Position numbers and translations under genes: made by a program. Positions 44,521-61,269 of a stretch of 64,000 nt of DNA are shown one piece after another. Each line of letters starts with the position of its first letter. Positions within the stretch are counted from its first letter, which is position 1. Under the pieces are notes generated by a model. It ran no database searches. It saw only the letters and a program-made list of their open reading frames with translations, and was not told the origin of the DNA. This DNA is from Paenibacillus sp. JNUCC-31 (GTDB taxonomy: Bacteria; Bacillota; Bacilli; Paenibacillales; Paenibacillaceae), in NCBI RefSeq assembly GCF_014844075.1, contig NZ_CP062165.1, positions 7,254,001-7,318,000 of the forward strand, in the 5' to 3' direction.

Positions 44521-45468
44521 ATGCAAACAAAATTGGCAGCGGACGCCATTCCCCTCTCCAAAAAGCGAAAGTCATGGATAAGGACGATCCAAAAATATAA
44601 AGTGATGTATGCTCTCTTATTACCAGCCTTAATTTACTTTGCCGTATTCAAATACATTCCTATGGCAGGAATATTGATTGCTTTTAAAAACTACAACCTG
44701 GCTTTGGGAGTATGGGATAGCCCGTGGGTGGGATTCAAAAATTTCACGGATTTTATGAACGGCGTTTATTTCTGGGACATCATGAAAAATACGATTGTTA
44801 TATCGCTCTATAAGCTGTTGTTCGGTTTCTCCGCTCCCATCCTACTTGCTTTACTGCTCAATGAAGTTCATACCCAATGGTTTAAGAAAATCGTTCAAAC
44901 CATTACTTATTTACCCCACTTTCTGTCTTGGGTCATTGTGTATGGATTGATGGTAGCATTATTAGCCCCAGGCGATGGCCTTTTTAATATGATTTTGAAA
45001 GAAAGTGGTTTTCAGCCCATTTCATTTCTAACGGAGCCTGCTTGGGGAAGACTGCTGGTCATCGCATCTGAAATATGGAAGGACATTGGATGGGGAGCGA
45101 TACTATACCTCGCCGCATTAGCAGGTATTGATCCAAGCTTATATGAAGCGGCTCGAATGGATGGCGCTTCCAAATGGAGACAGCTCTGGCATATCACTTT
45201 ACCAGGCATTCGAGGAGTCATTATTCTGATGCTGATTCTTAAATTAAGCCATATTCTGGATGCCGGCTTTGACCAAATATTCATGTTTGCCAACACCTTT
45301 AACCAGGAGAAGATCGACATTATCGACACATGGGTATACCGTGAAGGGTTGGAGCGTCTTAAGATTGGCTTGGCTACTGCTGTAGGATTGTTTAAAGCTG
45401 TCATTGGATTTGGTTTAGTTTTAGCAGCGAATAAGCTCGCCAAAAAATTCGATGGGCAAATCTGGTGA
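44521..45468 (+). CDS. Sugar ABC transporter permease, LplB type (second locus)
   Basis: 315 residues from the ATG at 44521 (GAGGTGAT upstream); the longer frame starts within the -10 region. Six membrane segments and EAA loop EAARMDGASKWRQLWHITLP. Opens the second importer operon, under the shared element upstream. No ATPase gene in the locus, as in the first importer. Confidence 0.93.
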   Translation: MQTKLAADAIPLSKKRKSWIRTIQKYKVMYALLLPALIYFAVFKYIPMAGILIAFKNYNLALGVWDSPWVGFKNFTDFMNGVYFWDIMKNTIVISLYKLLFGFSAPILLALLLNEVHTQWFKKIVQTITYLPHFLSWVIVYGLMVALLAPGDGLFNMILKESGFQPISFLTEPAWGRLLVIASEIWKDIGWGAILYLAALAGIDPSLYEAARMDGASKWRQLWHITLPGIRGVIILMLILKLSHILDAGFDQIFMFANTFNQEKIDIIDTWVYREGLERLKIGLATAVGLFKAVIGFGLVLAANKLAKKFDGQIW

Positions 45469-45481
45469 GGTGGTTAACAAA

Positions 45482-46351
45482 ATGATCAATTTGACAATCG
45501 GGGAAAAAGTCTGGCAATCCGTCGTTTATGTTATTCTTATTTTTTTATCACTACTTTGTTTACTGCCCTTTCTATATGTGATTGCTGTCTCAGTGACGCC
45601 AGAATCAGAAGTATTAAGAAGAGGGATTGTGATTATACCAGAATCTTTTACCTTTCTGGCCTATAAAGAAGTATTCGTTTCTCATGGGATCTGGCAGGCG
45701 TATAAAATTACGTTGTTTCGAACGATTGTAGGTACGATGCTTAATGTGCTTTTTACGGTTTTAGCAGCTTATCCGTTATCCAAAAAGTATTTGCCGGGAC
45801 GCAGTCCGTTTTTACTATTCATTGTGTTTACCATGATGTTTAGTGGGGGGTTAATTCCGACTTATCTACTAATTCGCTCTCTGGGGTTGCTAAACAGTCC
45901 GTGGGTATTGGTTATTCCAAATCTCATTAGTGCATTTAATCTGGTGATCATTAAAGGCTTTTTCGAGCAATTGCCTGGTGAAATCGAGGAATCAGCGAGG
46001 GTTGACGGTGCAAGTGAACTTCAATCGTTATGGCGGATCATTTTACCACTGTCTTTGCCCGTCATTTCCACCATTTCTTTATTTTACGCAGTGGGGCATT
46101 GGAACAGTTATTTTGATGCCATTGTTTATATCAATGATTCCAACTTCATGCCGCTTCAAGTCGTCTTACGCAACATCCTGCTTAACGTCGCAACACAAAG
46201 CGCTGAGTCGCTCGCCAATTCCGGAACGGTGAGTACGTTCGCTGTCCAGATGGCTACCGTTGTTGTGACTACGGTTCCGATTTTGATCGTTTACCCATTT
46301 TTACAAAAGCATTTTACCAAAGGTGTGCTCTTGGGATCCGTTAAAGGTTAA
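45482..46351 (+). CDS. Sugar ABC transporter permease, LplC/YtcP type (second locus)
   Basis: 289 residues from the ATG at 45482, with GAGGTGG eight bases upstream, 13 bases behind the first permease. EAA loop EIEESARVDGASELQSLWRIILP and the typical end YPFLQKHFTKGVLLGSVKG. Pairs with the preceding permease. Confidence 0.93.
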   Translation: MINLTIGEKVWQSVVYVILIFLSLLCLLPFLYVIAVSVTPESEVLRRGIVIIPESFTFLAYKEVFVSHGIWQAYKITLFRTIVGTMLNVLFTVLAAYPLSKKYLPGRSPFLLFIVFTMMFSGGLIPTYLLIRSLGLLNSPWVLVIPNLISAFNLVIIKGFFEQLPGEIEESARVDGASELQSLWRIILPLSLPVISTISLFYAVGHWNSYFDAIVYINDSNFMPLQVVLRNILLNVATQSAESLANSGTVSTFAVQMATVVVTTVPILIVYPFLQKHFTKGVLLGSVKG

Positions 46352-46416
46352 AAGGTGTTCCAACCTAACTTATTACGGGGAAACCGTGATAATATACAAT
46401 CAAAGGAGAGGTCAAT

Positions 46417-48003
46417 ATGCAGCGTAAGAAGTTATCATATGCTATTCTGTCGGCAATCTTAGGACTGGGAACGCTACTGTCAGGATGTGGAGGAAACGAA
46501 GAGGTTACATCAACAGCTTCTAGTCATTCGCCAGGGCAGTCTGGTCAGTTTGAAACCAAAATGAAAATCTCGATGTTTAACCAAGGTACTTTCAATGCTG
46601 CTGCTCCAATCCCTCCACGGGATGAAGATATTCAACGCCAGATGTTGGAGAAAGAGATGAACATCGACTTGGATATGATGATTCCTCAAGCTGGGCAAGC
46701 AACAACCAAACTGAATACGCTCATTGCTGGTGGAGATATTCCAGATTTGATTTTCTTAAAGAGCCGGGCTGATCTCGCTCAATATTATGACCAAGGCGTT
46801 CTTGCAGATTTGACACCGTATCTGGATCAATTCCCTGAATTGCAGAAACGATTTGGCGACGACTCCTGGGAGGCAATGTCCTATCAAGGAAAAACGATCG
46901 GAGTTCCAGGCTATGATAATGTTAACGGTATCAGCCGAAGTTTCTTCATCCGCAATGATTGGCTGAAAAAGCTGAATATGGATGTGCCAACGACACCTGA
47001 TGAGCTGTTCGAAGTTATGAAAGCCTTTACAGAGCAAGACCCGGACGGTAATGGCAAAAACGATACGTACGGATTTATCGGCGGTATGAATAAAGAAGGT
47101 AATCTGCAAACCTACGGCTTCGATAGCTTGATGTGGATGTTTGGCGTCAATCCTCCTTCGGCCGTTGAAATAAAAGATAATGAACCGATCTTCCTGTTTA
47201 TCGATCCCAAAATGAAAGAGGCGCTCGCTTACATTAACAAAATGATGGCAGCTAAAGTGGTAGACCCAGACTGGGTGACGATGAATTCGCCTGATCTGTT
47301 GGACCAAAAGATGTTTAAGGGTAAAGTTGGCTTCATGATCAGAGATGCCCGCAGACTGGAGCCGGATTATCAGCAGAAAATGAAAGAAATTAGTGGCGAG
47401 GTGCCGGAATGGATTGTCATTCCTCCGATGAAAGGTCCTTACGGTGATCAAATTGTAGAGAGAAAATCGTTCCAAGGCAATTCATGGGCTATTTCTGCGA
47501 AAGCGGATAAGGACAAAATCATTCGAATCCTGTCCATGCTGAATTATCTCTTTACGGACGAAGAAGCCTATCCGAACTTTGCATACGGAATTAAAGGTAT
47601 TCATTGGGATGTGGTGGACGGCAAAATCAAAAATAAAACCTCCGAATTATCGAAGGAAATGAAAGAGAAGTACCTGTGGGTCGATCATTATAGAATGCCG
47701 CGCCGTGGTGATGATGCGGAGTACTTCAGCTTCCAGAATCCGAAGACGGCAGAGGCATTCAAGAATAATCAGCAATATGTGGGGCCAACGTTGCCCGGAA
47801 ATTTATTGACCCCAGACCCAAGCGATACCTTGGATGCTGACCGCCAACGTTTCATTAATGAAAGCTTGGTTAAATTTATGACGGGCAAAGATCCTCTTTC
47901 CAACTGGGACAATTTCCTCCAAACCTTGGATACCAAGTTTGACATGCAGAAATATAAGGATTCAGCAATCAAGCAATTTAAAGAAGCCGGCCTTATCAAA
48001 TAA
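46417..48003 (+). CDS. Lipoprotein solute receptor (second locus)
   Basis: 528 residues; AAAGGAG before the ATG. Lipobox LLSGC (Cys24). Large cluster-1 type sugar receptor with a calcium-loop-like DPDGNGKNDTYG segment. Ligand unknown; the downstream FAD enzyme and SGNH hydrolase suggest an acylated or unusual glycan. A terminator follows, so receptor and permeases may be made in excess over the regulators. Confidence 0.92.
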   Translation: MQRKKLSYAILSAILGLGTLLSGCGGNEEVTSTASSHSPGQSGQFETKMKISMFNQGTFNAAAPIPPRDEDIQRQMLEKEMNIDLDMMIPQAGQATTKLNTLIAGGDIPDLIFLKSRADLAQYYDQGVLADLTPYLDQFPELQKRFGDDSWEAMSYQGKTIGVPGYDNVNGISRSFFIRNDWLKKLNMDVPTTPDELFEVMKAFTEQDPDGNGKNDTYGFIGGMNKEGNLQTYGFDSLMWMFGVNPPSAVEIKDNEPIFLFIDPKMKEALAYINKMMAAKVVDPDWVTMNSPDLLDQKMFKGKVGFMIRDARRLEPDYQQKMKEISGEVPEWIVIPPMKGPYGDQIVERKSFQGNSWAISAKADKDKIIRILSMLNYLFTDEEAYPNFAYGIKGIHWDVVDGKIKNKTSELSKEMKEKYLWVDHYRMPRRGDDAEYFSFQNPKTAEAFKNNQQYVGPTLPGNLLTPDPSDTLDADRQRFINESLVKFMTGKDPLSNWDNFLQTLDTKFDMQKYKDSAIKQFKEAGLIK

Positions 48004-48013
48004 AATATAAACG

Positions 48014-48043
48014 AAGAGAGTGGCTATTCGTAGCCCTCTCTTT
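48014..48043 (+). terminator. Hairpin after the receptor gene
   Basis: AGAGAG-GGCTA pairs with TAGCC-TCTCT around TTCG with one internal mismatch, then TTTATT. Probably partial, letting some transcription into the two-component genes. Confidence 0.75.
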
Positions 48044-48094
48044 ATTGTCATATGCTATTCTTAGTTTACTACGGAAGTAAAAGGAAGATGATCG

Positions 48095-49834
48095 ATGCCA
48101 AGAAGGTTCAGCTTGCCCTTAAAATTATTTTTTATCGTATTTGCATTTGTATTAAGCTGCATCATCTTGATAAGTCAATTGTCTTATCGCTATGTCCAAA
48201 AGGAAATACGAACCAATGACCTTTATTACACCAACCAAATACTTGAAAAGGTAGACCAGTATTTCACCGTTAATTTTTCCTCCTTTCAGACGATCCTGTT
48301 CTCGGTCGAAACATCAGTGAAAGCCAATATTGAGAATACGGAAGTGATCAAAAAGCAATTAAGAGAGCTCTATGAACTCAACAGTAATTACGTCAGTAAT
48401 ATTTATTTGATCAAAAGCGATTTATCCATTCTGGGCGGAAGTACAGCTACCCGGATATTCGATGAACCTTTATCTGAAAGGGAACCTTTGTTTGATGCGG
48501 CTGAGAAGAACAGAAGGACCACCTTTGTTAGTGAACCTTACAAATCGAAGTATTCCGGCTGGACCGTTACGATGGTTCGATATCTGAACAGTGCTCCGTT
48601 TCCTATGGCCATTGCGGTTGATTTGGATCTAAATGCCATTGAAGAAACCTTGTTCAAGATTAATAAACAAGAACAAATGAATCTGGCTCTAATTACCGCG
48701 TCAGGTAAAATCATTGCCGGATTCTCTGGAAATAAAGGACTACTGAATATTCAAGATCATACGTTTTCAATCGGGGAAACGTCAGCGGAACAAATCCTGG
48801 ATACGACAGAAACAAGCCTTCAACTGCATACCAAGGATGGCATTCCGGTCTCCCTTCTGAAAAAACCGACGGAGAAATTCAACTGGACCATCATCTCGAT
48901 CAACGATGAATCACGCTTGAAATCAGCTTTGTCCAGATTGGAAACCTATTATATTGGGCTTCTAGCTGCGGGTTTTCTGTTAAGTTTGTTCATTTCTTTT
49001 TTGGTTGCCAAATATATAAGAAAGCCACTCTATACGCTCAAAACAAAAATGAAGCAGGTGGAGCAAGGTTTCCTCACAACGACAATAACGATTAATCGAA
49101 ACGATGAGTTTGGAGACCTTTCACGAGCATTCGATCGTATGCTGCAGCAAATTGTGGAACTGATTCGGCGAGCGGAGCTTCATAATGAACTTGAGCGAAA
49201 GCTGGAAATCCAGGTGCTACAGTCTCAAATCAATCCTCATTTTCTGTATAATACACTTGGTTCGATCAGCAATGTTATACGTCTCGGCCAAATAGAGAAA
49301 GTAGATGTGGTGATTGGATCGCTCATTTCATTATTGGAATACGGAATAGACGATGCCTCAGAGAAGGTTTCCCTACGCCAGGAATTACGAAATGTAGCGG
49401 ACTATATCGAGATCCAGAACATTCGGTATAACCGAAACTTCCACTTGATTGAACATATCGAAGCAGGGTTAATGGATTTTCCGGTTTTTCGAATGCTGCT
49501 GCAGCCTCTTGTGGAGAATAGCATCTTCCATGGTTATAACGGAGGGGGAATTGAGGGGCCTATTACGATTCATGCGTACAGGGAGGACGGTATCGTCATC
49601 ATAGAAGTTGTTGATCAAGGCGAGGGAATTCCAGCTGAGAAATTAAAGCATATTTTAATCTCAGAACCGAGTGAAATGGAAGTGAAAAGGAAAAGAATCG
49701 GGCTGAATAATATTCATGGCCGAATAAGACTTCACTACGGAGACCAATTCGGACTGCAAATCATTAGCATACCTAAGGAGATAACCCGTGTACGCGCATT
49801 ATTCCCCTCAGAATTACAAAAAGGAGATGCATAA
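48095..49834 (+). CDS. YesM-type sensor histidine kinase
   Basis: 579 residues. Membrane helices at about 10-30 and 285-307 flank an extracellular Cache-type sensor of about 250 residues; HAMP (305-360), then the His_kinase domain with phospho-acceptor His382 in QINPHFLYNTL, and the ATPase domain with LLQPLVENSIFHGY and DQGEGIP. Family members sense extracellular sugars or the loaded receptor and pass phosphate to the YesN-type regulator encoded next, whose start overlaps this stop by one base. Confidence 0.93.
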   Translation: MPRRFSLPLKLFFIVFAFVLSCIILISQLSYRYVQKEIRTNDLYYTNQILEKVDQYFTVNFSSFQTILFSVETSVKANIENTEVIKKQLRELYELNSNYVSNIYLIKSDLSILGGSTATRIFDEPLSEREPLFDAAEKNRRTTFVSEPYKSKYSGWTVTMVRYLNSAPFPMAIAVDLDLNAIEETLFKINKQEQMNLALITASGKIIAGFSGNKGLLNIQDHTFSIGETSAEQILDTTETSLQLHTKDGIPVSLLKKPTEKFNWTIISINDESRLKSALSRLETYYIGLLAAGFLLSLFISFLVAKYIRKPLYTLKTKMKQVEQGFLTTTITINRNDEFGDLSRAFDRMLQQIVELIRRAELHNELERKLEIQVLQSQINPHFLYNTLGSISNVIRLGQIEKVDVVIGSLISLLEYGIDDASEKVSLRQELRNVADYIEIQNIRYNRNFHLIEHIEAGLMDFPVFRMLLQPLVENSIFHGYNGGGIEGPITIHAYREDGIVIIEVVDQGEGIPAEKLKHILISEPSEMEVKRKRIGLNNIHGRIRLHYGDQFGLQIISIPKEITRVRALFPSELQKGDA

Positions 49835-51456
49835 TGATGAGAGACTATACCTGTTTCATTGTTGACGATGAAGACCTGATCATACAAAGATTGGAATTGT
49901 TTTTTAGTGAGCTCTCTTATAGGGATAAGCGATTTGTTCTCGTGGGAAAAGCAAATAATGGGCTGAATGGGATCGAAGAGATCATAAAACTTAAACCGGA
50001 TATTGTCATATCCGATATCGTTATGCCGCGAATGGACGGAATCTCCATGATTGAGCAGCTCAAGGCTGAGCTCCCCCATACCCAGTACATACTTTTGACC
50101 GCCTATTCATCCTTTGAATACGCCCAGCGAGCGATTCAAGCCAACGTATTGGAGTACATTGTAAAGGTTCCGCTGAGGGAAGCGGATTTGAATCGAGCTT
50201 TGGATAAGGCTGCCGGAATTTTAAATGAGTTTAAGAAAAAAGAAGCAGAATTTCAATCGTTAAACGTATCCGTGCTTGAAAATAAATATAGAGTCCGCAA
50301 GCAATTTTTTAACGAACTGATCAGAGGCGAAATTCCTTCTCATCGTGCATCAGATTTTGCCAATCGCATGCAGTTTCATTTCTTTCAAGCCAACTATTGC
50401 TGCTTCATCGTTGAAATGAATACGTATGAAAGTTTCCGAAACGAATACGCAGCCGCTGATCAAAACATATTGAAATATGCGATTACGAATGTAATTGAAG
50501 AAACGGTGATGAATGGTGGCAGCGGCGTAGCTGCGGATCTGTCCGATAATCGTTTTATTGGTTTTTTATCCTGGGAAAATAACCGCAGTGATATGGAAAC
50601 GGAATATGCTTGCCAATCCTTGGGAGGGCAGATCGTCTCCCACTTACATCAATATTTGAATCAAAGGGTATCCGTCGCTTTTGGAGGTCCGTACCGAGGT
50701 TGGGAATCGATCAAACAAGCGTACACGGAAGCTAAAAATGTGAGTGAGGATTTCTATTACCATACAGAGAAAGTCGTAAAAACACCCATGCATCGGTTCC
50801 AATACCATAATGACAAAAAAGCAGACTTTCAGCAGAAGCTGGCTGATTTTCTGTTATCGGTGAAAAGGAAGATTTCCAAGGAAGAACTGGACAATGCAAT
50901 CGCCGATCTGAACCAATTTGTTACGGATTATAAAATCCACAAGTCCATCATGGCACCGATGATTAGAGACTTATACAGGGACATTACCAAGAAGTTTAAA
51001 TCGGGGAACAAGCTGTACACGGAAGCAGCAGAATTCCCCATGGAATTTATGGCATTTCAGGAGCAGCTCGCCTATATTGGCGACTTCACATTCGAATACG
51101 TACACGCGGGCCAACTATTACATCGTGCAGAAATCATGAGTGCTATGCATTTTATAGAGAAAAACCTGAAACAGCGTTTAACGCTGGAGGCTATTGCTGA
51201 GGAAGTGAATTTGGCACCATCCTATTTTAGCAGTTTATTCAAAAAAACAATGAACGAAGGCGTGATCAGCTACATCAACCGAAAAAAAATCCAACTAGCT
51301 CTCGAACTATTAAATGCTAAGGATTATTCTTTATTGGAATTGTGCGAAGAAGTAGGCATCGTCAATGAAGGTTACTTTTGCAAACTGTTTAAAGAATATA
51401 CGGGAGATACGCCCAAGCAATACCGGATAAAAATGACACGGTACGAATCCAAATAA
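49834..51456 (+). CDS. YesN-type response regulator with AraC DNA-binding domain
   Basis: 540 residues. Receiver (1-120) with CFIVDDED, phospho-acceptor Asp61 in ISDIVMPRMDG and Lys111 in IVKVPL; a long middle region; C-terminal AraC double helix-turn-helix (about 435-535: RLTLEAIAEEVNLAPSYFSS, EEVGIVNEGYFCKLFKEYTG). It is the natural reader of the TAAGAAATTCTT/GAAATT elements at 44441 and 55089, although this is inferred. Translationally coupled to the kinase gene. Confidence 0.93.
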   Translation: MMRDYTCFIVDDEDLIIQRLELFFSELSYRDKRFVLVGKANNGLNGIEEIIKLKPDIVISDIVMPRMDGISMIEQLKAELPHTQYILLTAYSSFEYAQRAIQANVLEYIVKVPLREADLNRALDKAAGILNEFKKKEAEFQSLNVSVLENKYRVRKQFFNELIRGEIPSHRASDFANRMQFHFFQANYCCFIVEMNTYESFRNEYAAADQNILKYAITNVIEETVMNGGSGVAADLSDNRFIGFLSWENNRSDMETEYACQSLGGQIVSHLHQYLNQRVSVAFGGPYRGWESIKQAYTEAKNVSEDFYYHTEKVVKTPMHRFQYHNDKKADFQQKLADFLLSVKRKISKEELDNAIADLNQFVTDYKIHKSIMAPMIRDLYRDITKKFKSGNKLYTEAAEFPMEFMAFQEQLAYIGDFTFEYVHAGQLLHRAEIMSAMHFIEKNLKQRLTLEAIAEEVNLAPSYFSSLFKKTMNEGVISYINRKKIQLALELLNAKDYSLLELCEEVGIVNEGYFCKLFKEYTGDTPKQYRIKMTRYESK

Positions 51457-51555
51457 GGATGCAAAAAATGTATGATTTTTTCGCGAAATCCTGTAAAAAA
51501 AAGAGGACCCCAACCATTACCATGATAGAAGCATCTAATCATGGAGGTTATCAAA

Positions 51556-53772
51556 ATGGAGCTTATGAAAGCAGATGTAACCGTCGTAGGCGGAGGTATT
51601 GCTGGGATATGCGCTGCCATTGCTGCCGCACGCCAAGGGCTGCAAGTTTCACTTATTAATGATCGGCCGGTCCTTGGGGGAAATGCGAGCAGCGAGGTCA
51701 GGGTTCATATCAACGGGTCGGCATATCTCGGAAACAGTCCATCCTATTATGCACGCGAGGGGGGGGTGGTGGAAGAACTCAAGCTGAAGATCTTTCATTA
51801 TAATCCGTTATATAACAAGAAGCTTATGCTCTCGCTCTCGGATACGGTCTTGCTCGACATGGTTTATGATGAGCCTAACATTTCTCTATTCCTGAATACA
51901 TGCGTGCATGAAACAGGCATGGAGAACGGCAGAATTAAATGGGTGGAAGGCCTTCAATTGGCTTCCGAAAGAAAATTTCGTTTTGAAAGCCCAACCTACA
52001 TCGATTGCTCCGGCGATGGAATTGTTGGATACCAAGCAGGGGCTCACTTCCGATGGGGAAGAGAGGCGAAGCATGAATACAACGAGGAGTTAGCTCCTGA
52101 AGTGGCGGATCATTATACCATGGGTGATACGATTCTGTTTCAAGCCCGTGACGTAAACTATCCCGTTCCATACAAAAGACCAGGCTTTGCATATGACATT
52201 ACGAAGTTGGCCTTTTTCGATAGTATCAGAAAAGGCTTAAACCATCGGTCTTTTCCAAGGAAAATCAACGGGCTTGGCGGATTATGGTGGCTGGAATACG
52301 GCGGACATATGGATATTATCAAGAATAATGAAGAGATCGCATTGGAACTGCGAAAATTGGTTTATGGAATATGGGATTATATCAAAAATAGTGGCGAGTT
52401 TGATGATGTGGACAATCTCATCTTGGATTATGTATGCCCGATTCCGGGAAAGCGGGAGTCGAGGCGGTTTATAGGGGAGCACATGCTGTCTCAGAACGAT
52501 CTTACAACAAAGCCCCATTTCGAAGATGCGGTATCTGTCGGAGGCTGGTATATGGATCTGCATGCGAATAAAGGCATTTACGATGAGGGGCCGGCTACAG
52601 CCTGGAATTTCGTGCCGGGATTGTATAATATCCCTTTCCGCAGCTTATTTTCACGCAATATTCCTAATCTGATGTTCGCTGGCCGTAATATAAGCGCTAC
52701 CCATGTGGCTTTTGGATCGACAAGGGTCATGGCAACTTGCGGTTGTATGGGGCAGGCGGTAGGAACGGCTGCTGCGTTATGCTTGAAATACGAGGCAGAC
52801 CCCGCGACCATCGTCAAAGCCCATATGGGTGAGCTTCAGGCGCAGCTGCTTCGAGACGGGCAAACGATTGTAGGGCTTCAAGAGCAGTTGGATCCTTATT
52901 TCGCTGACGGATTGACGATTCGTGCCTCGTCTCAGCGAAGCTATGAACATCTTCATCCAACCGAAGAGATATCCTTGGACAAAGCGTTATGTTTGGTCTT
53001 GCCGATTCAGACATCTGTGGCTGAAAGCGTGCGAATTAAAATTAAAAACAGGTCCGAGCAATCGGAGAATTTGCAAGTGAAGCTGTTTGGAGGGGAGCGC
53101 AAGGAAAACTATATTCCCACCAGCGAGCTGAAAGAGTACCACTTGGTTATTTCAGCGGGTCACGATGACTGGATTACACTGGACCTGGGCTGCGAGAAAC
53201 CGGCTGATGACAAAATCTATATTGTTTTGGAAGGCCCGGGGAGCCTTGCCGTACACGGAAATGAAGAGAAGTTGACAGGAGCGGTCAGCTTCCTTTATAA
53301 ACCGGAAGAGCCGTCCAGGCTGAAGAAATTCAATAGGAGCATTTGCTTCAAAGATCTGAACCCATCCCAGGATATGTATAATCCCGCGAATGCCGTTAAC
53401 GGATACTCCAGACCTTATGGTCTGCCAAACAGCTGGATTTCTGAACGTTCGGAAGGACAGGAATGGTTGGAATTTGGTTTTGCAAGCCCCAAGAATCTGG
53501 ATGAAATCCATCTTGTTTTCAATTCGCAGCTGAATTTGGAGCATTTCGACGATCCGATCGAACCCTTGATTCAAGATTATGATGTGACCTTAACCTTAGA
53601 AGACGGAACTGAGAGTCAAATGAATATCCGTGGGAATTATCTTTCATTGAATAAACATCTAGTGCATGCAAAAGGGGTAACTCGAATTCGGCTTGATTTC
53701 AGTGCTACGTATGGTTCTCCTTATTATGAAGTGTTTGCTGTAAAATTTTTTGCTTCTAAAAACGCTAAGTGA
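51556..53772 (+). CDS. FAD-dependent oxidoreductase with C-terminal beta domain
   Basis: 738 residues from the ATG at 51556 with GGAGG eight bases upstream; the ATG at 51541 overlaps that site. FAD_oxidored (PF12831-like) enzyme: dinucleotide motif VVGGGIAGICAAIAAARQG, then LGGNASSEVRVHI, YIDCSGDGIVGYQAGA and the second FAD contact NLMFAGRNISATHVAFGSTR with MATCGCMGQAVGTAAA. From about residue 500 follows a beta-rich region resembling sugar-binding modules. No signal peptide, so it is cytoplasmic. Such enzymes in sugar loci probably oxidise or isomerise a sugar hydroxyl; the substrate is unknown. Confidence 0.85.
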   Translation: MELMKADVTVVGGGIAGICAAIAAARQGLQVSLINDRPVLGGNASSEVRVHINGSAYLGNSPSYYAREGGVVEELKLKIFHYNPLYNKKLMLSLSDTVLLDMVYDEPNISLFLNTCVHETGMENGRIKWVEGLQLASERKFRFESPTYIDCSGDGIVGYQAGAHFRWGREAKHEYNEELAPEVADHYTMGDTILFQARDVNYPVPYKRPGFAYDITKLAFFDSIRKGLNHRSFPRKINGLGGLWWLEYGGHMDIIKNNEEIALELRKLVYGIWDYIKNSGEFDDVDNLILDYVCPIPGKRESRRFIGEHMLSQNDLTTKPHFEDAVSVGGWYMDLHANKGIYDEGPATAWNFVPGLYNIPFRSLFSRNIPNLMFAGRNISATHVAFGSTRVMATCGCMGQAVGTAAALCLKYEADPATIVKAHMGELQAQLLRDGQTIVGLQEQLDPYFADGLTIRASSQRSYEHLHPTEEISLDKALCLVLPIQTSVAESVRIKIKNRSEQSENLQVKLFGGERKENYIPTSELKEYHLVISAGHDDWITLDLGCEKPADDKIYIVLEGPGSLAVHGNEEKLTGAVSFLYKPEEPSRLKKFNRSICFKDLNPSQDMYNPANAVNGYSRPYGLPNSWISERSEGQEWLEFGFASPKNLDEIHLVFNSQLNLEHFDDPIEPLIQDYDVTLTLEDGTESQMNIRGNYLSLNKHLVHAKGVTRIRLDFSATYGSPYYEVFAVKFFASKNAK

Positions 53773-53789
53773 GGTCGGGTGAAGTCGCG

Positions 53790-54998
53790 ATGAAGGAATT
53801 TTTCCCTCGAAGAGGGCTCCCTAATGTCATTCACAAGTTGGAAAATGGGGAAACTGTAACTATTGTCTATTTCGGCGGCAGTAATACGCGTTCTAAAGGA
53901 TACAGAGTTATGACGGCAGAATGGCTTCGAGGGCAATATCCCAATGCGGATATCCACACTGTTAATGCAGGCATTGATGGGACAGGATCGGACCTCGGCT
54001 GCGCCCGTTTGGAGACAGATGTACTGAGTCATCAGCCTGATCTCGTATTTGTTGAATTTGTTGGAAACGATGGGGGAGTTCCTGAATCCAAGGCGCGAAT
54101 CGAAGGAATTGTCCGACAGATCCGCAAGCGGAGCCGTTTTACCGATATTCTGTTCGTATATACGGTTAAGGAGCGGGATTTGACCTCATTTCAATCCGGC
54201 AAATACCAGAAGGGAGCTCTTATGCAAGAGGAAGTCGCCGACTATTACGGCATTCCTTCGATTCATCTGGGTGTAGCGGTCTGTCAATTGGTTTCAGATG
54301 GAAAGCTTATTTTTACTTCAAGGGAAGACGTGTCCATTCCCGGAGCCGTTATTTTCACACATGATTCCATCCATCCAACGATTCCCGAAGGACATCAGAT
54401 TTACACAGATACAATCACCCGGTCGTTTGAGAAAATCAGAGAACTTCGAGATCACGTGGGAAAGGTCGAACAACACTTGCCACAGGAACCTTTGATCCTG
54501 GCCAATCCTTGGGAGTATGCAACCATGCTGCCACTGGATATTTTTACTCATTTTTCCTCAGGGTGGACTTACATGACCCCAGATGATTTTCCTTTAGTGC
54601 GCGAGTACGATTGGTTGTTCCCCGGTCTATGGCGAGCAGTCGATCCCGGAGAGACGATCACAGTGGAGTTTGAGGGAACCCACATCGGATTATTCGATAT
54701 CGGGGGGCCGGATTCAGGCAGATTGAAGGTAACGGTGGATGGAGGGGAGCCCTTTCTTATCGATCGATTCACACCTTATAACGATCATAATCGTAATCAG
54801 TATGTTTTCTTACCGGAGCTACCGAACGGGAAACATACGGTTCGCTTCGAAATCGATAACAAGAAGACAGACAAAGCGGCCGTGTTTGAGGCAAGTGGCA
54901 ATGAGAGAAGTATGGAACATGTTCGGCAACATCCCGCTTGGTATGATCAAACGGTCATCCAGCTTGGAAAGTTGCTGCTGGTGCAGCCTCCATTATAA
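53790..54998 (+). CDS. SGNH-hydrolase-type esterase with C-terminal beta domain
   Basis: 402 residues from the ATG at 53790; a GTG at 53769 overlaps the previous stop region and has no ribosome binding site. The nucleophile serine is in YFGGSNTRS (block I), Asn in EFVGNDGG (block III), and the Asp-His pair in HDSIHPT (block V). The last 140 residues are beta-rich (TVEFEGTHIGLFDIGGPDSG), like a carbohydrate-binding appendix. No signal peptide. It likely removes acyl groups from the imported glycan, 17 bases behind the FAD enzyme gene. Confidence 0.85.
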   Translation: MKEFFPRRGLPNVIHKLENGETVTIVYFGGSNTRSKGYRVMTAEWLRGQYPNADIHTVNAGIDGTGSDLGCARLETDVLSHQPDLVFVEFVGNDGGVPESKARIEGIVRQIRKRSRFTDILFVYTVKERDLTSFQSGKYQKGALMQEEVADYYGIPSIHLGVAVCQLVSDGKLIFTSREDVSIPGAVIFTHDSIHPTIPEGHQIYTDTITRSFEKIRELRDHVGKVEQHLPQEPLILANPWEYATMLPLDIFTHFSSGWTYMTPDDFPLVREYDWLFPGLWRAVDPGETITVEFEGTHIGLFDIGGPDSGRLKVTVDGGEPFLIDRFTPYNDHNRNQYVFLPELPNGKHTVRFEIDNKKTDKAAVFEASGNERSMEHVRQHPAWYDQTVIQLGKLLLVQPPL

Positions 54999-55018
54999 TG
55001 GATTGGTCCACTTGGAAG

Positions 55019-55075
55019 ACCTACATTCGAACTGACTGCAATGGAGCAATCAATTAGGATGTAGGTTTCTTTTTT
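55019..55075 (+). terminator. Terminator of the second importer operon
   Basis: ACCTACAT (55019-55026) pairs with ATGTAGGT (55059-55066), followed by TTCTTTTTT. The giant secreted-protein gene therefore starts a new unit. Confidence 0.8.
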
Positions 55076-55088
55076 ACTTAAAATCGTA

Positions 55089-55141
55089 TAAGAAATTCTT
55101 AAAATGAAAGAAATTTCACGGTGATGTGACATGCTAATATA
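55089..55141 (+). promoter_or_regulatory. Shared regulon element, copy 2, before the giant secreted protein
   Basis: TAAGAAATTCTT (55089-55100) lies 43 bases before TGCTAATATA (55132-55141), against 42 bases in copy 1. GAAATT occurs at 55092 and 55110, an 18-base interval, twice the nine-base period of copy 1. The sequence between is otherwise different, so the match is functional rather than a duplication of the whole region. Confidence 0.75.
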
Positions 55142-55250
55142 AAAACGACAGAGCGGGATTAGCCAGAAGGAAAAGGTTGATTGCATTTTTGCGATCGATT
55201 GAGCAAAGGAACATCATTTCTTGGAAGCGTTATCATTAAGAGGAGAGGCT

Positions 55251-58200
55251 GTGATTTGTATGATCCAAAGGAAGCTGTTTTTCTTCATCGTTTTCATGTT
55301 GACGATAGTAATTCCTTTCAGCCTGGTCGAAATAAGGACCGCTTATGCGGAAACCTTACCGTATCAGACGATTATCATCGATGACGGGAGCATCACGATC
55401 AATGATGTTGTGACACCTGATGCGGGTAACGCGAATAACGGGTTCTCCGCTCCTTATTGGACCACAAGCGCAGGAGTGAAGGGATACAATAATTCCAGTT
55501 CCAAATATACGGATGCCGTAGGTAGAAGTATCACATGGAATCCACGCTTGGAAGCAGGGACGGCGAGAATATCATTCTATAAGCTTGATTGGGCAGATAA
55601 AGCAGATAGTAATGTAAAAATTGAGATTGTTCATAACGGGATTACAGATGTCATGTTTATGGATCTTAGACCTTCATCGGGTCCATCGGCCGGATGGGTG
55701 GATTTGGGGGAGTATGAATTCAGTGGTGATGATACCGAATTTGTCAGGCTGACTCGAACACAACCTACGACGGGCAAGATTATTACTCGGGCCGATGCAG
55801 TCAAGTTCGAAGGGAATATCCAGCAGCAAGCACCGCCATTACCCCCGCTGCGGAGCCGCACATTAGCTAATCTCAGTTACACGGAAAAAGGAAGCATCGA
55901 AAATGCAGAGTATAAGGCGACCTTCTATGAGGCAGCATGGGATGGGGGCAAATCCATCGTTCGTGACATGTTCTACAAGAACACGGACACGGGAAACTGG
56001 GTGCCGATCAATACTGTGGCGGAAAGACTTGAGGAGCAATGGGTTTTATTGGATGGGAATGCGGGGAGCCTAACCAATTACTACGATACGATGAACAAAC
56101 GCTGGATTACATTCGACGGGATCACTTTTCCCGACAACCACACGGCGGTATTAACTGATTCCTCTCATGGCAGTGATTACGATTTTGAAGTGAACTGGTC
56201 CATGGCAGGGGAGAAACCAGATGTTTCCTTCGCCTTTACACCTCGTCGCAATGGCAATTATGTGATTGGATATCAGTCCTTCACAACAGAGATAGTCTCG
56301 GGCATCAATGAAGTGTTAAGTGGATTCAGGTCGCATGCAAAAATGGTAGGTACGGTGGAATCAACAAGCTTGAGGGAGCTGAGCGCCCCGATGAGTCTGA
56401 TTGAGAAGAATGACGGTTCAGGGAATCCTTTGACATATGGGGTATTTGTAGCATCAGAAGAGCTTCCGGTTGAATTTGAACCGACGGGAGGCGTTACGAA
56501 ACAACGGCTTGGCATGAGCCTTGTCAACAACGAAGGCAGCGTGCAGCCCATCCTGTATGCGCCTCAATTAGATACTTATTCGCAAATGACCGCGGAAAGC
56601 ACCTATCAATTTCATATGGGTCTAATCGCTCAAAAAGGCAATCTGTATGAGTCCTACGCGGATATTCTTCGCAATGAGTACGGATATTCGGCATACCGGG
56701 AAAATGTCTCTGAACAATCGCTTACTGACGCGATGTTCAATATGATCGATCTGCTTAAGATAGAGCCGCAAGGGGATGACTCTGTTGATTATGTCCCGTC
56801 ACCCAGCGGGTGGTGGAGCCGTGCCAAGGGCTTTATTGATATCGAAAACGAAGATAGCGTTCGAACAAGTTCGAATGCGGTTCTTCTGGGGGCTTACTAT
56901 TTGACCGGGGATGACCAGCTTTACGATACGAGAGCATTGCCGTCCGTCCAATATGGCGTATCGCGAAATGGTATCGGATGGTCGCCGACGAAGAAGACCG
57001 TGTACGGCGTGCCTTCGTTATGGAAAATGGCCACCCTGCCGTTCGATGTTTCAAGCGTAGCCGCTGTGAATCAGATGATGGGCACTACGGCAGGAATTGG
57101 GGCGATGGCACAGGAAGAGTACCTTATGCGTGATCCTGACCAGAAAGACAGGGGTCCTGTCATTCAGCCTCTGATGATGTATCGTATGACAGGAGATGCG
57201 CAGTATTTGCAGGCTGCCAAGGATGCAGCCGACAGCTATATCCTGCAGCATATCGATACGCCTGCATCCGTGAATATAAGTAAAAATGAGTTCATTTATT
57301 ATTATAGCAAACTGTGGATGGAGATCTTGGAGCTTTACGAGGAAACGCAGGATCCCAAATACTTGAATGCCGCTTATAAGGAAGCCAAAAGGTATGCCAC
57401 CATGTTTGTTGCTCGTCCGGTTCCTGACGGTAATGTTACGATTCCGCAGCCCGAGACATATAATTACGCGGAGTCGTTCCATTGGCCGGAGAGCGGTAAA
57501 TTTCAATATCCTAGGCTCAAGCTTCCAGAAGATATAGCCGGAGGCGTTCAAGCGGATCGCTCGCTTGTTTCACCGAGCGGATTGACGTTTGAAGCAGGAA
57601 GTACAACCGGCTATTATCGGATGAATGCCCAGGAAGCTCCATTCATGCTGAGATTGTCGCTCTATACAGGGGATAAACTGCTGCAGGATATTGCTCATAA
57701 TGCGGTTATTGGTCGATATTCCAGTTATCCAGGTTATTACTATAAAGGCTTCGCCGTTAGCCAACTTGAACCGGACTTTCCTCTGGAAGGCCCAAGCGGG
57801 GCTACATCCATCTATTATCATCATATCCCGGGGCAGCTCGGGCAAACGATGGATTATTTGATCAGCGAACAATCATTGAAGTCGAATGGGAGTATTTCAT
57901 TTCCTTCCGTATTCGAAACGAATTTTTTATGGTTCAAATATCACCTCTATGGGAATAAACCAGGCCAATTTTATGGTAATTCCGACGTTTGGCTCTGGAT
58001 GCCCAAAGGAATTATCCAGACAAACGATCCTCAATTGAACTGGATAACAGGAGAGAGCGGAGATAAATTCTACATCGGATTAAGCAACGTATCGTCAGAT
58101 GAAGTTCAGACTTCAATCGAATTGAATGAACAAATCATTGGGTTCAACCCGGCACAAGATTATACCGTAACGATCATCCGCGATAATGGCACACCAGAAC

Positions 58201-59852
58201 AAGCGGTTATGAGTGGCGGAATCATCCAAGCCACGGTTTCAAGCAAGGGCATCACCGCTATCATTGTAGAAGGACTCCACATTGATGTGCCGCTGCATCA
58301 GGTCAGAACTGCGGATACATCGGATGCTAGCTATTTCTTCGATACCCACAGTCCAATCGATGCGGTTAAAGGCATGTTGATCGTTAAGCCCGACGAAACG
58401 GTTTATGATGCTTATGTGCAGGCCAAAACGACAAAACCAGCGACAATCCATTATTCCTTGGATGGCGGAGCTACGTATACGACCATCCCGGATACGATCT
58501 ATCCGATGGAATGGTCGGTACGGGTGAACGATTTATCCCAAACCTTCACGTATTATGTGGAATCGGAAGGGAAACAGACCCGCAAGCGTACACTCTATCT
58601 GCCTGATCAGGTAACGGAAACTCCAGTCCAACCCGATGATGGGCAGGATGGTTCATCTATCATTGTAGATAATACGGAGGCGGAGACAGAAGGGGTTTGG
58701 ATAAGGGATACGACGGCTAACGACTATTACTATGATAACTATGTGTATGCCAAATCGACAGCCAGCACAGCGACAAGCAAAATGAAATGGCGGCCGGAGC
58801 TGCCGGAAAGTGTTACTTACAGTGTGTATTACAAGCTTCCGCAGATAACGGCTGCGACTGAAAATTGGGCAACGAATGCCTCATTTACCGTTTATTATAG
58901 CGGGGGCTCCGAGACAGTTACCGTTGATGAGACAACGGCCAATGGTACTTGGGTACACCTAGGTGACTATCCTTTTGCTGCAGGCGATAGTCGCTACGTG
59001 GAACTAACCAATAAGGCCAACAAGTCAAGGGTAGTAGCCGATGCGATCATGTGGGTGGATTCGAACAGGATACCGCAATTGGAATCGGCGGTGATCCTGT
59101 CCGATCGGAACGAGTTGCAAATGACTCAAACCGCACAACTGAGCGTAACCGGCTATTTGGATAACGGTTTGATCGGTGATCTGTCACAGGCCAATGTGCA
59201 GTATTTCGTTGACCGTACGGATCTGGCTGAAGTGGATAGCAGCGGTAGGTTAACCCTTCTAAATCTCGATGCGGGAACGGATCACATTGAGGTATGGGCC
59301 ACGGTCACGATTGACGGGGTGACCTTAACAACTCCTTCTTTGTCCATAACGATCAAGGACCTAACGGTTATCGTCGACAGTACAAATACAACGGGGTTGT
59401 ACACGACAGAAGGGTCTTGGAACCAAAGCAATCTAGCTGGATACAAAATTGGGGTTAAGTCGCGTTACACTACAGTACAAGGATCATCAGCAACGTGGAA
59501 AGGCCAGTTTCCGGAGGGGAAATATACGGTCTCCATCTTCAAGCTCGTCCATACGACGGCAAACGATAATCATGTCAAAGTGGAAGTGAAGCATAAGACG
59601 GGTACCGAGGTCACGTATATCGATGCAACGGTCGGCTCATCAGGTTGGGTTAATCTGGGCACGTTCGACTTTACGGGAGACGGCAGTGAGTATGTTCGTT
59701 TAACCAGGGAGACTCCTACAACGGTAGACCCGCCAACGCTTCCTGCCGATATGATCTATACAAGGGTTGATGCAGTTATGTTCGAACGTCATTCCGATGA
59801 TTCAGAGCTGCTTGCAAATGAGGTGCCAGATGAACCGACACTTTCTGAATAA
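55251..59852 (+). CDS. Giant secreted multi-domain protein with golvesin-like modules
   Basis: 1533 residues from the GTG at 55251 (AGGAG five bases upstream); the ATG at 55260 is the alternative. Signal peptide FFFIVFMLTIVIPFSLVEI with cleavage after AYA. Order: golvesin-like/Xly-type module (about 38-190, ending ITRADAVKFEG); a long catalytic-looking centre (about 200-1080) with beta-sandwich and then helical repeats (YQLTGDDQLYD-type, YRMTGDAQYLQAAKDAADSY, ELYEETQDPKYLNAAYKEA) suggesting an (alpha/alpha) toroid as in many glycosidases and lyases; a second golvesin-like module (about 1136-1270); an Ig-like domain (1273-1373); a third golvesin-like module (1372-1513, ending YTRVDAVMFERH). 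I cannot place the centre in a known CAZy family. Under the same regulatory element as the importer operon, so it probably digests that polymer outside the cell. Confidence 0.85.
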   Translation: MICMIQRKLFFFIVFMLTIVIPFSLVEIRTAYAETLPYQTIIIDDGSITINDVVTPDAGNANNGFSAPYWTTSAGVKGYNNSSSKYTDAVGRSITWNPRLEAGTARISFYKLDWADKADSNVKIEIVHNGITDVMFMDLRPSSGPSAGWVDLGEYEFSGDDTEFVRLTRTQPTTGKIITRADAVKFEGNIQQQAPPLPPLRSRTLANLSYTEKGSIENAEYKATFYEAAWDGGKSIVRDMFYKNTDTGNWVPINTVAERLEEQWVLLDGNAGSLTNYYDTMNKRWITFDGITFPDNHTAVLTDSSHGSDYDFEVNWSMAGEKPDVSFAFTPRRNGNYVIGYQSFTTEIVSGINEVLSGFRSHAKMVGTVESTSLRELSAPMSLIEKNDGSGNPLTYGVFVASEELPVEFEPTGGVTKQRLGMSLVNNEGSVQPILYAPQLDTYSQMTAESTYQFHMGLIAQKGNLYESYADILRNEYGYSAYRENVSEQSLTDAMFNMIDLLKIEPQGDDSVDYVPSPSGWWSRAKGFIDIENEDSVRTSSNAVLLGAYYLTGDDQLYDTRALPSVQYGVSRNGIGWSPTKKTVYGVPSLWKMATLPFDVSSVAAVNQMMGTTAGIGAMAQEEYLMRDPDQKDRGPVIQPLMMYRMTGDAQYLQAAKDAADSYILQHIDTPASVNISKNEFIYYYSKLWMEILELYEETQDPKYLNAAYKEAKRYATMFVARPVPDGNVTIPQPETYNYAESFHWPESGKFQYPRLKLPEDIAGGVQADRSLVSPSGLTFEAGSTTGYYRMNAQEAPFMLRLSLYTGDKLLQDIAHNAVIGRYSSYPGYYYKGFAVSQLEPDFPLEGPSGATSIYYHHIPGQLGQTMDYLISEQSLKSNGSISFPSVFETNFLWFKYHLYGNKPGQFYGNSDVWLWMPKGIIQTNDPQLNWITGESGDKFYIGLSNVSSDEVQTSIELNEQIIGFNPAQDYTVTIIRDNGTPEQAVMSGGIIQATVSSKGITAIIVEGLHIDVPLHQVRTADTSDASYFFDTHSPIDAVKGMLIVKPDETVYDAYVQAKTTKPATIHYSLDGGATYTTIPDTIYPMEWSVRVNDLSQTFTYYVESEGKQTRKRTLYLPDQVTETPVQPDDGQDGSSIIVDNTEAETEGVWIRDTTANDYYYDNYVYAKSTASTATSKMKWRPELPESVTYSVYYKLPQITAATENWATNASFTVYYSGGSETVTVDETTANGTWVHLGDYPFAAGDSRYVELTNKANKSRVVADAIMWVDSNRIPQLESAVILSDRNELQMTQTAQLSVTGYLDNGLIGDLSQANVQYFVDRTDLAEVDSSGRLTLLNLDAGTDHIEVWATVTIDGVTLTTPSLSITIKDLTVIVDSTNTTGLYTTEGSWNQSNLAGYKIGVKSRYTTVQGSSATWKGQFPEGKYTVSIFKLVHTTANDNHVKVEVKHKTGTEVTYIDATVGSSGWVNLGTFDFTGDGSEYVRLTRETPTTVDPPTLPADMIYTRVDAVMFERHSDDSELLANEVPDEPTLSE

Positions 59853-59970: not shown

Positions 59971-59977
59971 CCCTAAG

Positions 59978-60016
59978 GGCTGAGTGGATGAGAACCATCC
60001 ATTCGGCTTTTTTTTT
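59978..60016 (+). terminator. Terminator of the giant secreted-protein gene
   Basis: GGCTGAGTGGATG (59978-59990) pairs, with wobbles, with CATCCATTCGGCT (59996-60008), then T8. From here to about 60330 I see no gene; a TGGTATGATA extended -10-like sequence stands near 60250. Confidence 0.88.
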
Positions 60017-60447
60017 CAAGAGAGAAGAACTTGTTTCGCCCACTGTTGCCATAAACATAATCAAGTATCTCCTGCTGGCTGAATAGTTATAGATGGTTTG
60101 CTGTACTACAACCAGGATTGGGCACGTGAAGATGCGGTATATTTACGATTCCGAGAACAGAAAAATAGGGCATAACGCATTTTGTCGGTGCTTATTTTTG
60201 TTAACTAAGAAGGGCATTTAACAGTGGGATGTAGTGTAAATATCTGGTATGATATAGCTAAAAATTATGGATGTGAAGGTTGCATGGCTAAATATTCTCA
60301 GTGTCGATGCGAACGAAAAATATGTGATCGACCCGGCCGTACCGCGGGGACTCCCTCTGGAGTTCCATGCCGATGAGGGATGCTGCGGAGGGTCAGCAGA
60401 AGTACGGGCAGCAGGAGCACATCGAGACGCTGCCACTATTCTCCACC

Positions 60448-61269
60448 ATGGACAAGGGCGGACGGATGACGGCGCTCCGGCCGGGACGTCGCGTCGGACG
60501 CGCGGCTCCGCTGCTGCCGTGGTTGCTCGCAGCCGCTGCACTGTGGGCTCTGACAGGCTCCGTGCCGTTCGGCGCCCTGCTCGGCCTAGCGCCGACAACG
60601 TCGATCAGCATGCTCCTCGGTCATCCGATCACGGTGAGCGTCGCTGTGGTGCTGCTGTACGTCGCGATCACTGCGACCGTCACACTGTACTCGCGAGCGA
60701 TCGAGCAGTTCGGACAGATCAGGGTCGCTGGCCTGTTTGCGACGCTCGCGGTCACAGGAGGGTTCGTCGCAGCCGCGGGAGTCCTGCTGCTGTGGACGCT
60801 GACAAGTGATCCGTCGCGATCCTTTGACCTCGAGGCCATCGCGACGTCGCCGACGATCCCGCCAGAGCTTGGCGCAGTCGTCGGGGCCAGTTTTGCCCTT
60901 TGGGCCACCATCGCGCTCCTGCGGTTGCTCGGCTCAATCGCTCACGCCCGGCGACGTCAGGCTGACATCGAGCGCCTCCGCATTGAGGGCTCGTTATTCA
61001 CCGGGACGCTAACCGCCGTGAGCTTCGAGAACAGCTGGCTCTTCGATTTCCCGATGTTCACGGTCGAGGTAGTTTACATCGTCGACGGTGCTCCTCGTGT
61101 CGTCTCTGCACACATGCGCACCAGGGCCGACCGCGTCCCCGTCGTCGGCTCGCGTATGCTCGTGCTGACCGATAATCGCGGAACCAGCTACATGGAGCTG
61201 GACCCGTCCATTGGAGCAGCAGGATTCGAGCCGGACGTGAGGAAGTACGCCGCATCGGATCAAGGATGA
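60448..61269 (+). CDS. GC-rich, foreign-looking membrane protein
   Basis: 273 residues from the ATG at 60448; the frame is open from 60367 and ATG at 60466 is a further option, with no clear Bacillus-type ribosome binding site for any. Codons end almost only in G or C, unlike every neighbour, and resemble high-GC actinobacterial genes. Four membrane helices: LLPWLLAAAALWALTG, PITVSVAVVLLYVAITATVT, AGLFATLAVTGGFVAAAGVL and ASFALWATIALLRLLG, followed by a soluble beta domain of about 95 residues (GTLTAVSFENSWLFDFPMFT, VEVVYIVDGAPRVVSAHM) that recalls DUF3592-type domains. Function unknown. Its stop overlaps a transposase remnant. Confidence 0.65.
   Translation: MDKGGRMTALRPGRRVGRAAPLLPWLLAAAALWALTGSVPFGALLGLAPTTSISMLLGHPITVSVAVVLLYVAITATVTLYSRAIEQFGQIRVAGLFATLAVTGGFVAAAGVLLLWTLTSDPSRSFDLEAIATSPTIPPELGAVVGASFALWATIALLRLLGSIAHARRRQADIERLRIEGSLFTGTLTAVSFENSWLFDFPMFTVEVVYIVDGAPRVVSAHMRTRADRVPVVGSRMLVLTDNRGTSYMELDPSIGAAGFEPDVRKYAASDQG

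Follow-up and report, generated by a model that had tools for sequence, protein, structure and literature searches.

The DNA analysed here, referred to as the window, is a stretch of 64,000 nucleotides (nt) from the soil-type bacterium Paenibacillus sp. JNUCC-31 (NZ_CP062165.1), and all coordinates are positions within it. It contains a sugar-uptake locus, entirely on the forward strand, in which open reading frames (ORFs) and Pfam matches give the order permease, permease, solute-binding protein (SBP), histidine kinase (HK), response regulator (RR), FAD-dependent oxidoreductase, SGNH esterase, and a giant secreted protein of 1530 amino acids (aa); an initial annotation had listed these eight ORFs in this order, and all of them are present. 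The core of the giant protein, a predicted alpha/alpha toroid, appears from sequence and profile comparisons to be an undescribed family resembling carbohydrate-active enzymes within an otherwise classical uptake locus. We assign a probability of about 0.5 to the reading in which the locus encodes an inducible route comprising extracellular cleavage of an acylated glycan by the toroid protein, ATP-binding cassette (ABC) import, CE17-like deacetylation, and oxidation by the FAD enzyme.

The giant protein, with its start placed at the ATG at 55260, extends to a stop at 59852, and the ORF list also has a TTG upstream at 55221. It begins with a signal peptide recognized by eye (residues 1-30, 55260..55349), followed by golvesin module 1 (about residues 38-186, 55371..55817), the toroid core (about residues 205-1125, 55872..58634), golvesin module 2 (residues 1134-1264, 58659..59051), an Ig-like segment (about residues 1290-1372, 59127..59375), and golvesin module 3 (about residues 1379-1515, 59394..59804). 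The three golvesin-like modules proposed initially hold up: Golvesin_C matches the protein in three stretches (Pfam, 9.1e-51), the best of them in module 2, and the modules can be aligned with one another. The Ig domain was an earlier suggestion to which Pfam gave no match. The central region had been described as not assignable to a known glycoside hydrolase or lyase family and as ending at residue 1080; it does lie outside families at the Pfam and NCBIfam cut-offs, while its end belongs at about residue 1125, since its last segment, judged by eye, is common to distant homologues. The sequence has no LPXTG-type motif and no cysteine across its 1530 aa. Secondary-structure propensities were flat, and hydrophobic moments hint at helices around residues 470-509, 590-709, 790-829, and 910-949. 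Split matches to residues 1-192 make an extra N-terminal golvesin module apparent in many relatives.

At the Pfam cut-off there was no match in the core, the best being the GH127 catalytic family (PF07944) at 18.5 bits versus 24.9; NCBIfam gave no match for the giant protein, and a PDB sequence search with this single protein returned only the golvesin module of a xanthan lyase (6f2p, 3.6e-11, aligned to module 2). The earlier supposition that the centre matches no characterized family is thus borne out over the core in Pfam, NCBIfam, and the PDB. Among the titles and abstract openings of the literature matches listed, neither the family nor the locus is described; those retrieved with "golvesin" deal mostly with Dictyostelium and other cell biology, with one item on bacterial lectins. 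Because the core falls below the Pfam and NCBIfam cut-offs, has no full-length relative in the PDB, and is not mentioned in those parts of the literature, we regard the family as undescribed; a CAZy family may nevertheless exist.

Profile comparisons point to a fold class. With a 76-row superfamily profile, GH76 chains were the top solved structures apart from golvesin (1.3e-6 for the whole sequence, a match of about 90 residues of helical repeat), whereas YteR, unsaturated glucuronyl hydrolase, and cellobiose 2-epimerase reached only 0.16-0.44. An hhalign comparison of the core with 14 GH127 proteins from related genomes scored 50.2 (61%); none of 40 column shuffles exceeded 27.7, and four unrelated alignments used as controls stayed at or below 2.2%. 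From this similarity to known toroid enzymes, we conclude that the core is predicted to belong to the same broad (alpha/alpha) six-hairpin class and not to GH127. A protein encoded by another gene of a Jiangella locus (L048:12773-16021) shows homology to the superfamily across 783 columns and just passes the PF07944 cut-off (25.4 versus 24.9), with a closer core homologue encoded next to it; on these matches it appears to link the superfamily with GH127.

Other results limit what this similarity can carry, and they weigh against our reading of the core. The best single stretch shown of the GH76 match has an i-Evalue of 0.023. One hairpin of the query can be placed at three positions in GH127; the query and GH127 reach 0.1% when aligned globally and 1.9% when the segment 560-760 is taken by itself. 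In an unconstrained alignment, E778 is paired with the Glu in the ETC motif of GH127, that part alone being nonsignificant (1.9%). The similarity to both GH127 and GH76 is driven by the helical repeat, and the zinc-cysteine site of GH127, which we take to include the ETC motif, is impossible in the window protein because it contains no cysteine. Membership in GH127 was rejected on this ground, the ETC motif being present in 14 of 14 fetched GH127 proteins, and on the score below the PF07944 cut-off. Four further families were rejected as relatives of the core for want of profile similarity: PL8 (0.2%, 7 proteins), PL26 (0.3%, 13 proteins), heparinase II (2.2%, 11 proteins), and GH105 (0.0%, 14 proteins). 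Also for PL26, a search of this genome did not find PF21346.

Residues R558, E778, T782, R819, Y826, H855, D865, and N943 are invariant in all 76 aligned rows, among which identity to the window protein drops to 22%. This alignment left out P0061, P0062, P0073, and many other listed matches; P0061 and P0062 also hold all eight residues in a 12-row alignment, and of the eight, R558 and T782 are not kept in the bridging Jiangella protein, whereas E778, R819, Y826, H855, D865, and N943 are. Because charged residues are invariant in the 76 rows, the core is probably catalytic, and E778, R819, Y826, H855, and D865 are candidate catalytic residues. P0073 is a wider toroid homologue fused in one ORF with an SSS sodium:solute symporter.

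Residues 200-1060 used as a query gave 58 matching proteins out of 6463 candidates, those with names coming mostly from Paenibacillus, Cohnella, Micromonospora, and Jiangella. When the alignment was widened and the best 7992 candidates were scored, at least 224 proteins reached E <=0.001, a set that overlaps the first; Spirosoma, Cyclobacterium, and one Sphingomonas are among the sources named in the 120 matches listed. With these sources assigned to the phyla to which we take them to belong, the core appears to be part of a superfamily present also in Actinobacteria and Bacteroidota. In a quick tree of the 76 rows, 11 Paenibacillus rows and 35 Bacteroidota-type rows each lay on one side of a branch, and the Actinobacterial rows split between two groups; of the six second-type Paenibacillaceae rows, five clustered, and L082 was separate, on a long branch. 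A plasmid collection searched with the core and two wider homologues gave no match.

The FAD, SGNH, and toroid genes travel together. A collection of species genomes scanned by two patterns yielded 65 loci, 45 of which had a core at least 73% identical, and in 41 of these 45 close loci (32 + 7 + 2) the order is FAD, SGNH, toroid. Among the 41, L044 carries a GH28 gene that separates FAD from SGNH, and L042 has more space ahead of the toroid gene. The remaining four are L022 and L026, with no FAD, HK, or RR at the locus, L037, with the toroid gene ahead of the transporter genes, and L038, truncated by a contig end. Of 99 genomes, the window's own included, one and the same set of 24 holds orthologues of toroid, FAD, and SGNH, at identities of at least 72%, 70%, and 64%, respectively, the next-best matches reaching 59%, 51% (partial), and 33%; these genomes are close kin, so that the shared presences are not independent events. 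In genome G057 stops interrupt the toroid and SGNH matches, and in G011 the SGNH match has one stop. The association of both enzymes with the giant protein in one sugar-uptake locus, as initially proposed, is thus supported by synteny and co-inheritance. In comparisons with L039, L016, and L023, dN/dS was 0.063-0.125 for SBP, HK, RR, FAD, SGNH, the toroid core, and golvesin module 1; the locus genes tested are coding sequences under constraint.

The SGNH enzyme (53769..54998, with a start at GTG 53769 or ATG 53790) matches Lipase_GDSL_2 (6.1e-10) and, over residues 17-307 of 409, RiCE17 (PDB 6HFZ; 4.6e-18, 68.7 bits). It has the motifs GGSNT, GND, and DSIHP, with Ser and Asp-x-x-His in register with RiCE17, so that both SGNH catalytic motifs and RiCE17 similarity mark it as CE17-like. 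RiCE17 is described as carrying a CBM35 attached to its SGNH domain and as acting as a 2-O-acetylesterase on mannans (PMC9487903); its triad is given as Ser41-His193-Asp190 (PMC13276840). An SGNH gene following the paralogous L047 toroid gene also encodes a RiCE17-like protein (5.1e-23). The FAD enzyme (51541..53772) matches FAD_oxidored (PF12831) over the full profile, 1-416 of 416 (3.4e-86, 290.6 bits, residues 12-436 of 743), and about 300 C-terminal residues lie outside Pfam families. The beta-rich appendices once attributed to both enzymes found no confirmation, staying below every Pfam cut-off, and no signal peptide was seen by eye in either. The genome holds 23 PF12831 matches, four of them near full length, one of these four being a 41% paralogue of the locus enzyme. 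By eye, the three other near-full-length genes also lie amid transporter-like genes. In L154 (1272001-1292000 of the same genome), a PF12831 gene stands beside an apparent ROK-type kinase, an RpiR-type regulator, and a NanE-like gene, likewise by eye.

From gene families, synteny, co-inheritance, conservation, and a profile-based fold class, we infer the sensing, the catalytic steps, and their order as follows. The two-component system would sense the glycan and make the module inducible. The secreted protein would hold its substrate via the golvesin modules while the alpha/alpha-toroid core cuts an acylated polysaccharide or oligosaccharide, perhaps at galacto- or arabino-configured linkages. 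The small product would enter through the ABC importer, the CE17-like esterase would strip acetyl groups from it, and the FAD enzyme would oxidize the deacetylated product. The order of cleavage, import, deacetylation, and oxidation is preferred because it is the simplest that uses every gene, and hydrolysis is favored over a lyase reaction because of the hydrolase companions and sugar-acid genes near other toroid genes. The earlier proposal of an undescribed route for an acylated polysaccharide stands in part: the resemblance of SGNH to RiCE17 supports an acylated glycan, but the support does not extend to newness as a pathway. The transporter, the two-component system, and SGNH are of known kinds, and by sequence the toroid belongs to the broad six-hairpin class.

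The neighbors of distant toroid genes were examined in a chosen subset of loci, with genes in GC-rich genomes called by third-position GC and Actinobacterial neighbor families named from representatives. Sixteen GC-rich Actinobacterial loci contained ABC permeases (13 loci), IclR regulators (9), MR_MLE dehydratases (8), DHDPS-type (8) and short-chain dehydrogenase/reductase (SDR; 8, a broad cluster) proteins, SMP-30 (7), GH20C (3), GH88/105-type proteins (3, all Micromonospora), KDG kinase with an Eda-type aldolase (2), and GH42 (1). Sugar-acid genes thus occur in half of these loci in place of the FAD/SGNH set, and in Actinobacteria a set of SDR, lactonase, sugar-acid dehydratase, and aldolase would take over the oxidation. 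None of the NCBIfam matches listed for these neighbors reached a curated cut-off; galactonate dehydratase was the top score for the three dehydratases scanned. GH97 genes lie near the paralogous toroid genes of Paenibacillaceae in L043, L047, L057 (by cluster), L085, L086, and L087, and GH78, GH29, and GH28 genes near distant toroid genes in single loci each. Among 31 loci searched for the FAD enzyme, a PF12831 gene adjoins the toroid gene in L058, and the distance between the two is about 3 kb in L087, 4-5 kb in L084, and 8.5 kb in L060; within the main group, such genes also occur near the toroid gene in L037 and L044. The GH28-type gene of L044 (5783-7033) hints at a pectic substrate in that strain.

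A lyase is the most substantial competitor to hydrolysis, though we consider it doubtful. Tyr826 and His855, with Arg819 and Glu778, would take the C5 proton of a uronate, and unsaturated oligosaccharides would pass to FAD and SGNH. The invariance of these four residues suits this mechanism, as do the GH28 gene between FAD and SGNH in L044 and the golvesin module in common with a Paenibacillus xanthan lyase. The GH105-like neighbors in 3 of 16 Actinobacterial loci fit it equally well and so count against our preference; the one in L049 has GH105-type proteins as its nearest PDB entries, but its sole NCBIfam match is a beta-galactosidase at 61.4 versus 420. The core, however, shows no profile link to PL8, PL26, or heparinase (at most 2.2%), most companion enzymes scanned are hydrolases, and the Actinobacterial genes suit the breakdown of a liberated aldose, although such families also serve in uronate pathways. 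That the giant protein is a noncatalytic binding or surface-structure protein we hold to be very improbable. Its three golvesin modules and the SLH, cadherin-like, or Big_2 domains of some homologues (precomputed Pfam) would fit such a role, but strictly conserved charged residues in rows that differ so widely speak against it, as do the many core-sized homologues of about 950 aa without further Pfam domains.

A terminator-like hairpin 3' of SGNH (55014..55070, -21.9 kcal/mol) precedes a T run (z -4.34, 0 of 200 shuffles as low), and folds at or below -18 kcal/mol that are followed by a T run occur after SGNH in 31 of the 41 syntenic loci and not in the other 10. A cre-like box with one mismatch (55222..55235) ends 24 nt 5' of the toroid ATG; cre is the site bound by CcpA. 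Of the 41 loci, 32 have a cre-like box with at most one mismatch no more than 420 nt from the SGNH stop, and 28 have one within 120 nt of the guessed toroid start, the latter versus 0.5% per shuffled stretch; the sequences are related and the boxes partly common by descent. In the whole window, 16 such matches occur at 11 places, five of them on both strands (expected, 4.5; at most 10 in 100 shuffles). Because of the hairpin and box upstream, the toroid gene is probably its own transcription unit under carbon-catabolite control. The same features suggest transcription apart from FAD and SGNH, and six of the 41 loci (L011, L027, L030, L041, L042, and L044) have a cre-like box in neither count. 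In L022 and L026, transporter, SGNH, and toroid are retained although FAD, HK, and RR are missing from the locus. With up to 16 FAD matches per genome in Paenibacillaceae kin, PF12831 neighbors there carry little weight. The hairpin, the box, and the missing FAD of L022 and L026 would fit three genes that are passengers in a shared genomic region and do not form a single pathway, an explanation that we consider unlikely, though somewhat less so than a noncatalytic protein, given the identical presence of the genes in 24 of 99 genomes, closely related as these are, and the recurrence of FAD or SGNH partners near distant toroid genes, FAD being the weaker link.

The remaining genes of the locus are two ABC sugar permeases (44521..45468 and 45461..46351; BPD_transp_1, 7.1e-16 and 1.1e-11), a lipoprotein SBP (46417..48003; SBP_bac_1, 9.4e-14; lipobox LLSGC by eye), a sensor HK (48095..49834; His_kinase, 5e-22, with HAMP and HATPase_c), and an RR with an AraC DNA-binding domain (49834..51456; Response_reg, 2e-19; HTH_AraC, 1.1e-18), the last two presumably of the YesM and YesN types. 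A terminator-like site with a 16-pair stem lies 3' of the toroid gene (59975..60011), one of 19 sites found in the window by a consensus scan versus 14.8 expected. Two genes upstream of the locus, a SecA-family protein (41167-43455) has SecA DEAD, P-loop, preprotein, and wing domains. Downstream, the kilobase 60000-60999 is GC rich (57% versus 48% and 46% in the flanks) and includes an ORF without a Pfam match (60367-61269).

More tentatively than the pathway itself, the core may found a large glycan-cleaving superfamily spanning Bacillota, Actinobacteria, Bacteroidota, and a Sphingomonas, with a Glu/Arg/Tyr/His/Asp site unlike those of known six-hairpin families, and deacetylation plus flavin oxidation would replace the Actinobacterial sugar-acid route in Paenibacillus. 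If so, the many hypothetical proteins among the 58 and 224 overlapping matches would gain a function open to testing, with six residues as candidates for the active site, and a pathway would be defined by the esterase and flavin enzyme linked to them. A reaction assigned to the locus FAD enzyme could then extend to the three other near-full-length PF12831 genes, since those too lie amid transporter-like genes.

Known systems resemble the locus piecemeal. The mannan 2-O-acetylesterase RiCE17 (6HFZ, 6HH9) is alike in its SGNH motifs; Pfam detected no CBM35-type domain in the window enzyme, whose alignment to RiCE17 stops at residue 307 of 409 and which has a sub-threshold CE2_N match (20.7 versus 27.9). 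The Paenibacillus xanthan lyase (6f2p), which we take to be a PL8 enzyme, has a golvesin module in common with the giant protein, whose core is unrelated to the seven PL8-type proteins compared. The exo-rhamnogalacturonan lyase PcRGLX of PL26 combines beta domains with an alpha/alpha toroid, and it differs in that the 13 PL26 proteins have no profile similarity to the core. Likeness to the GH76 alpha-1,6-mannanases is confined to the short helical-repeat stretch noted above. The GH127 beta-L-arabinofuranosidases are alike in the alpha/alpha repeat, to which the window protein adds a long conserved stretch before the toroid repeat.

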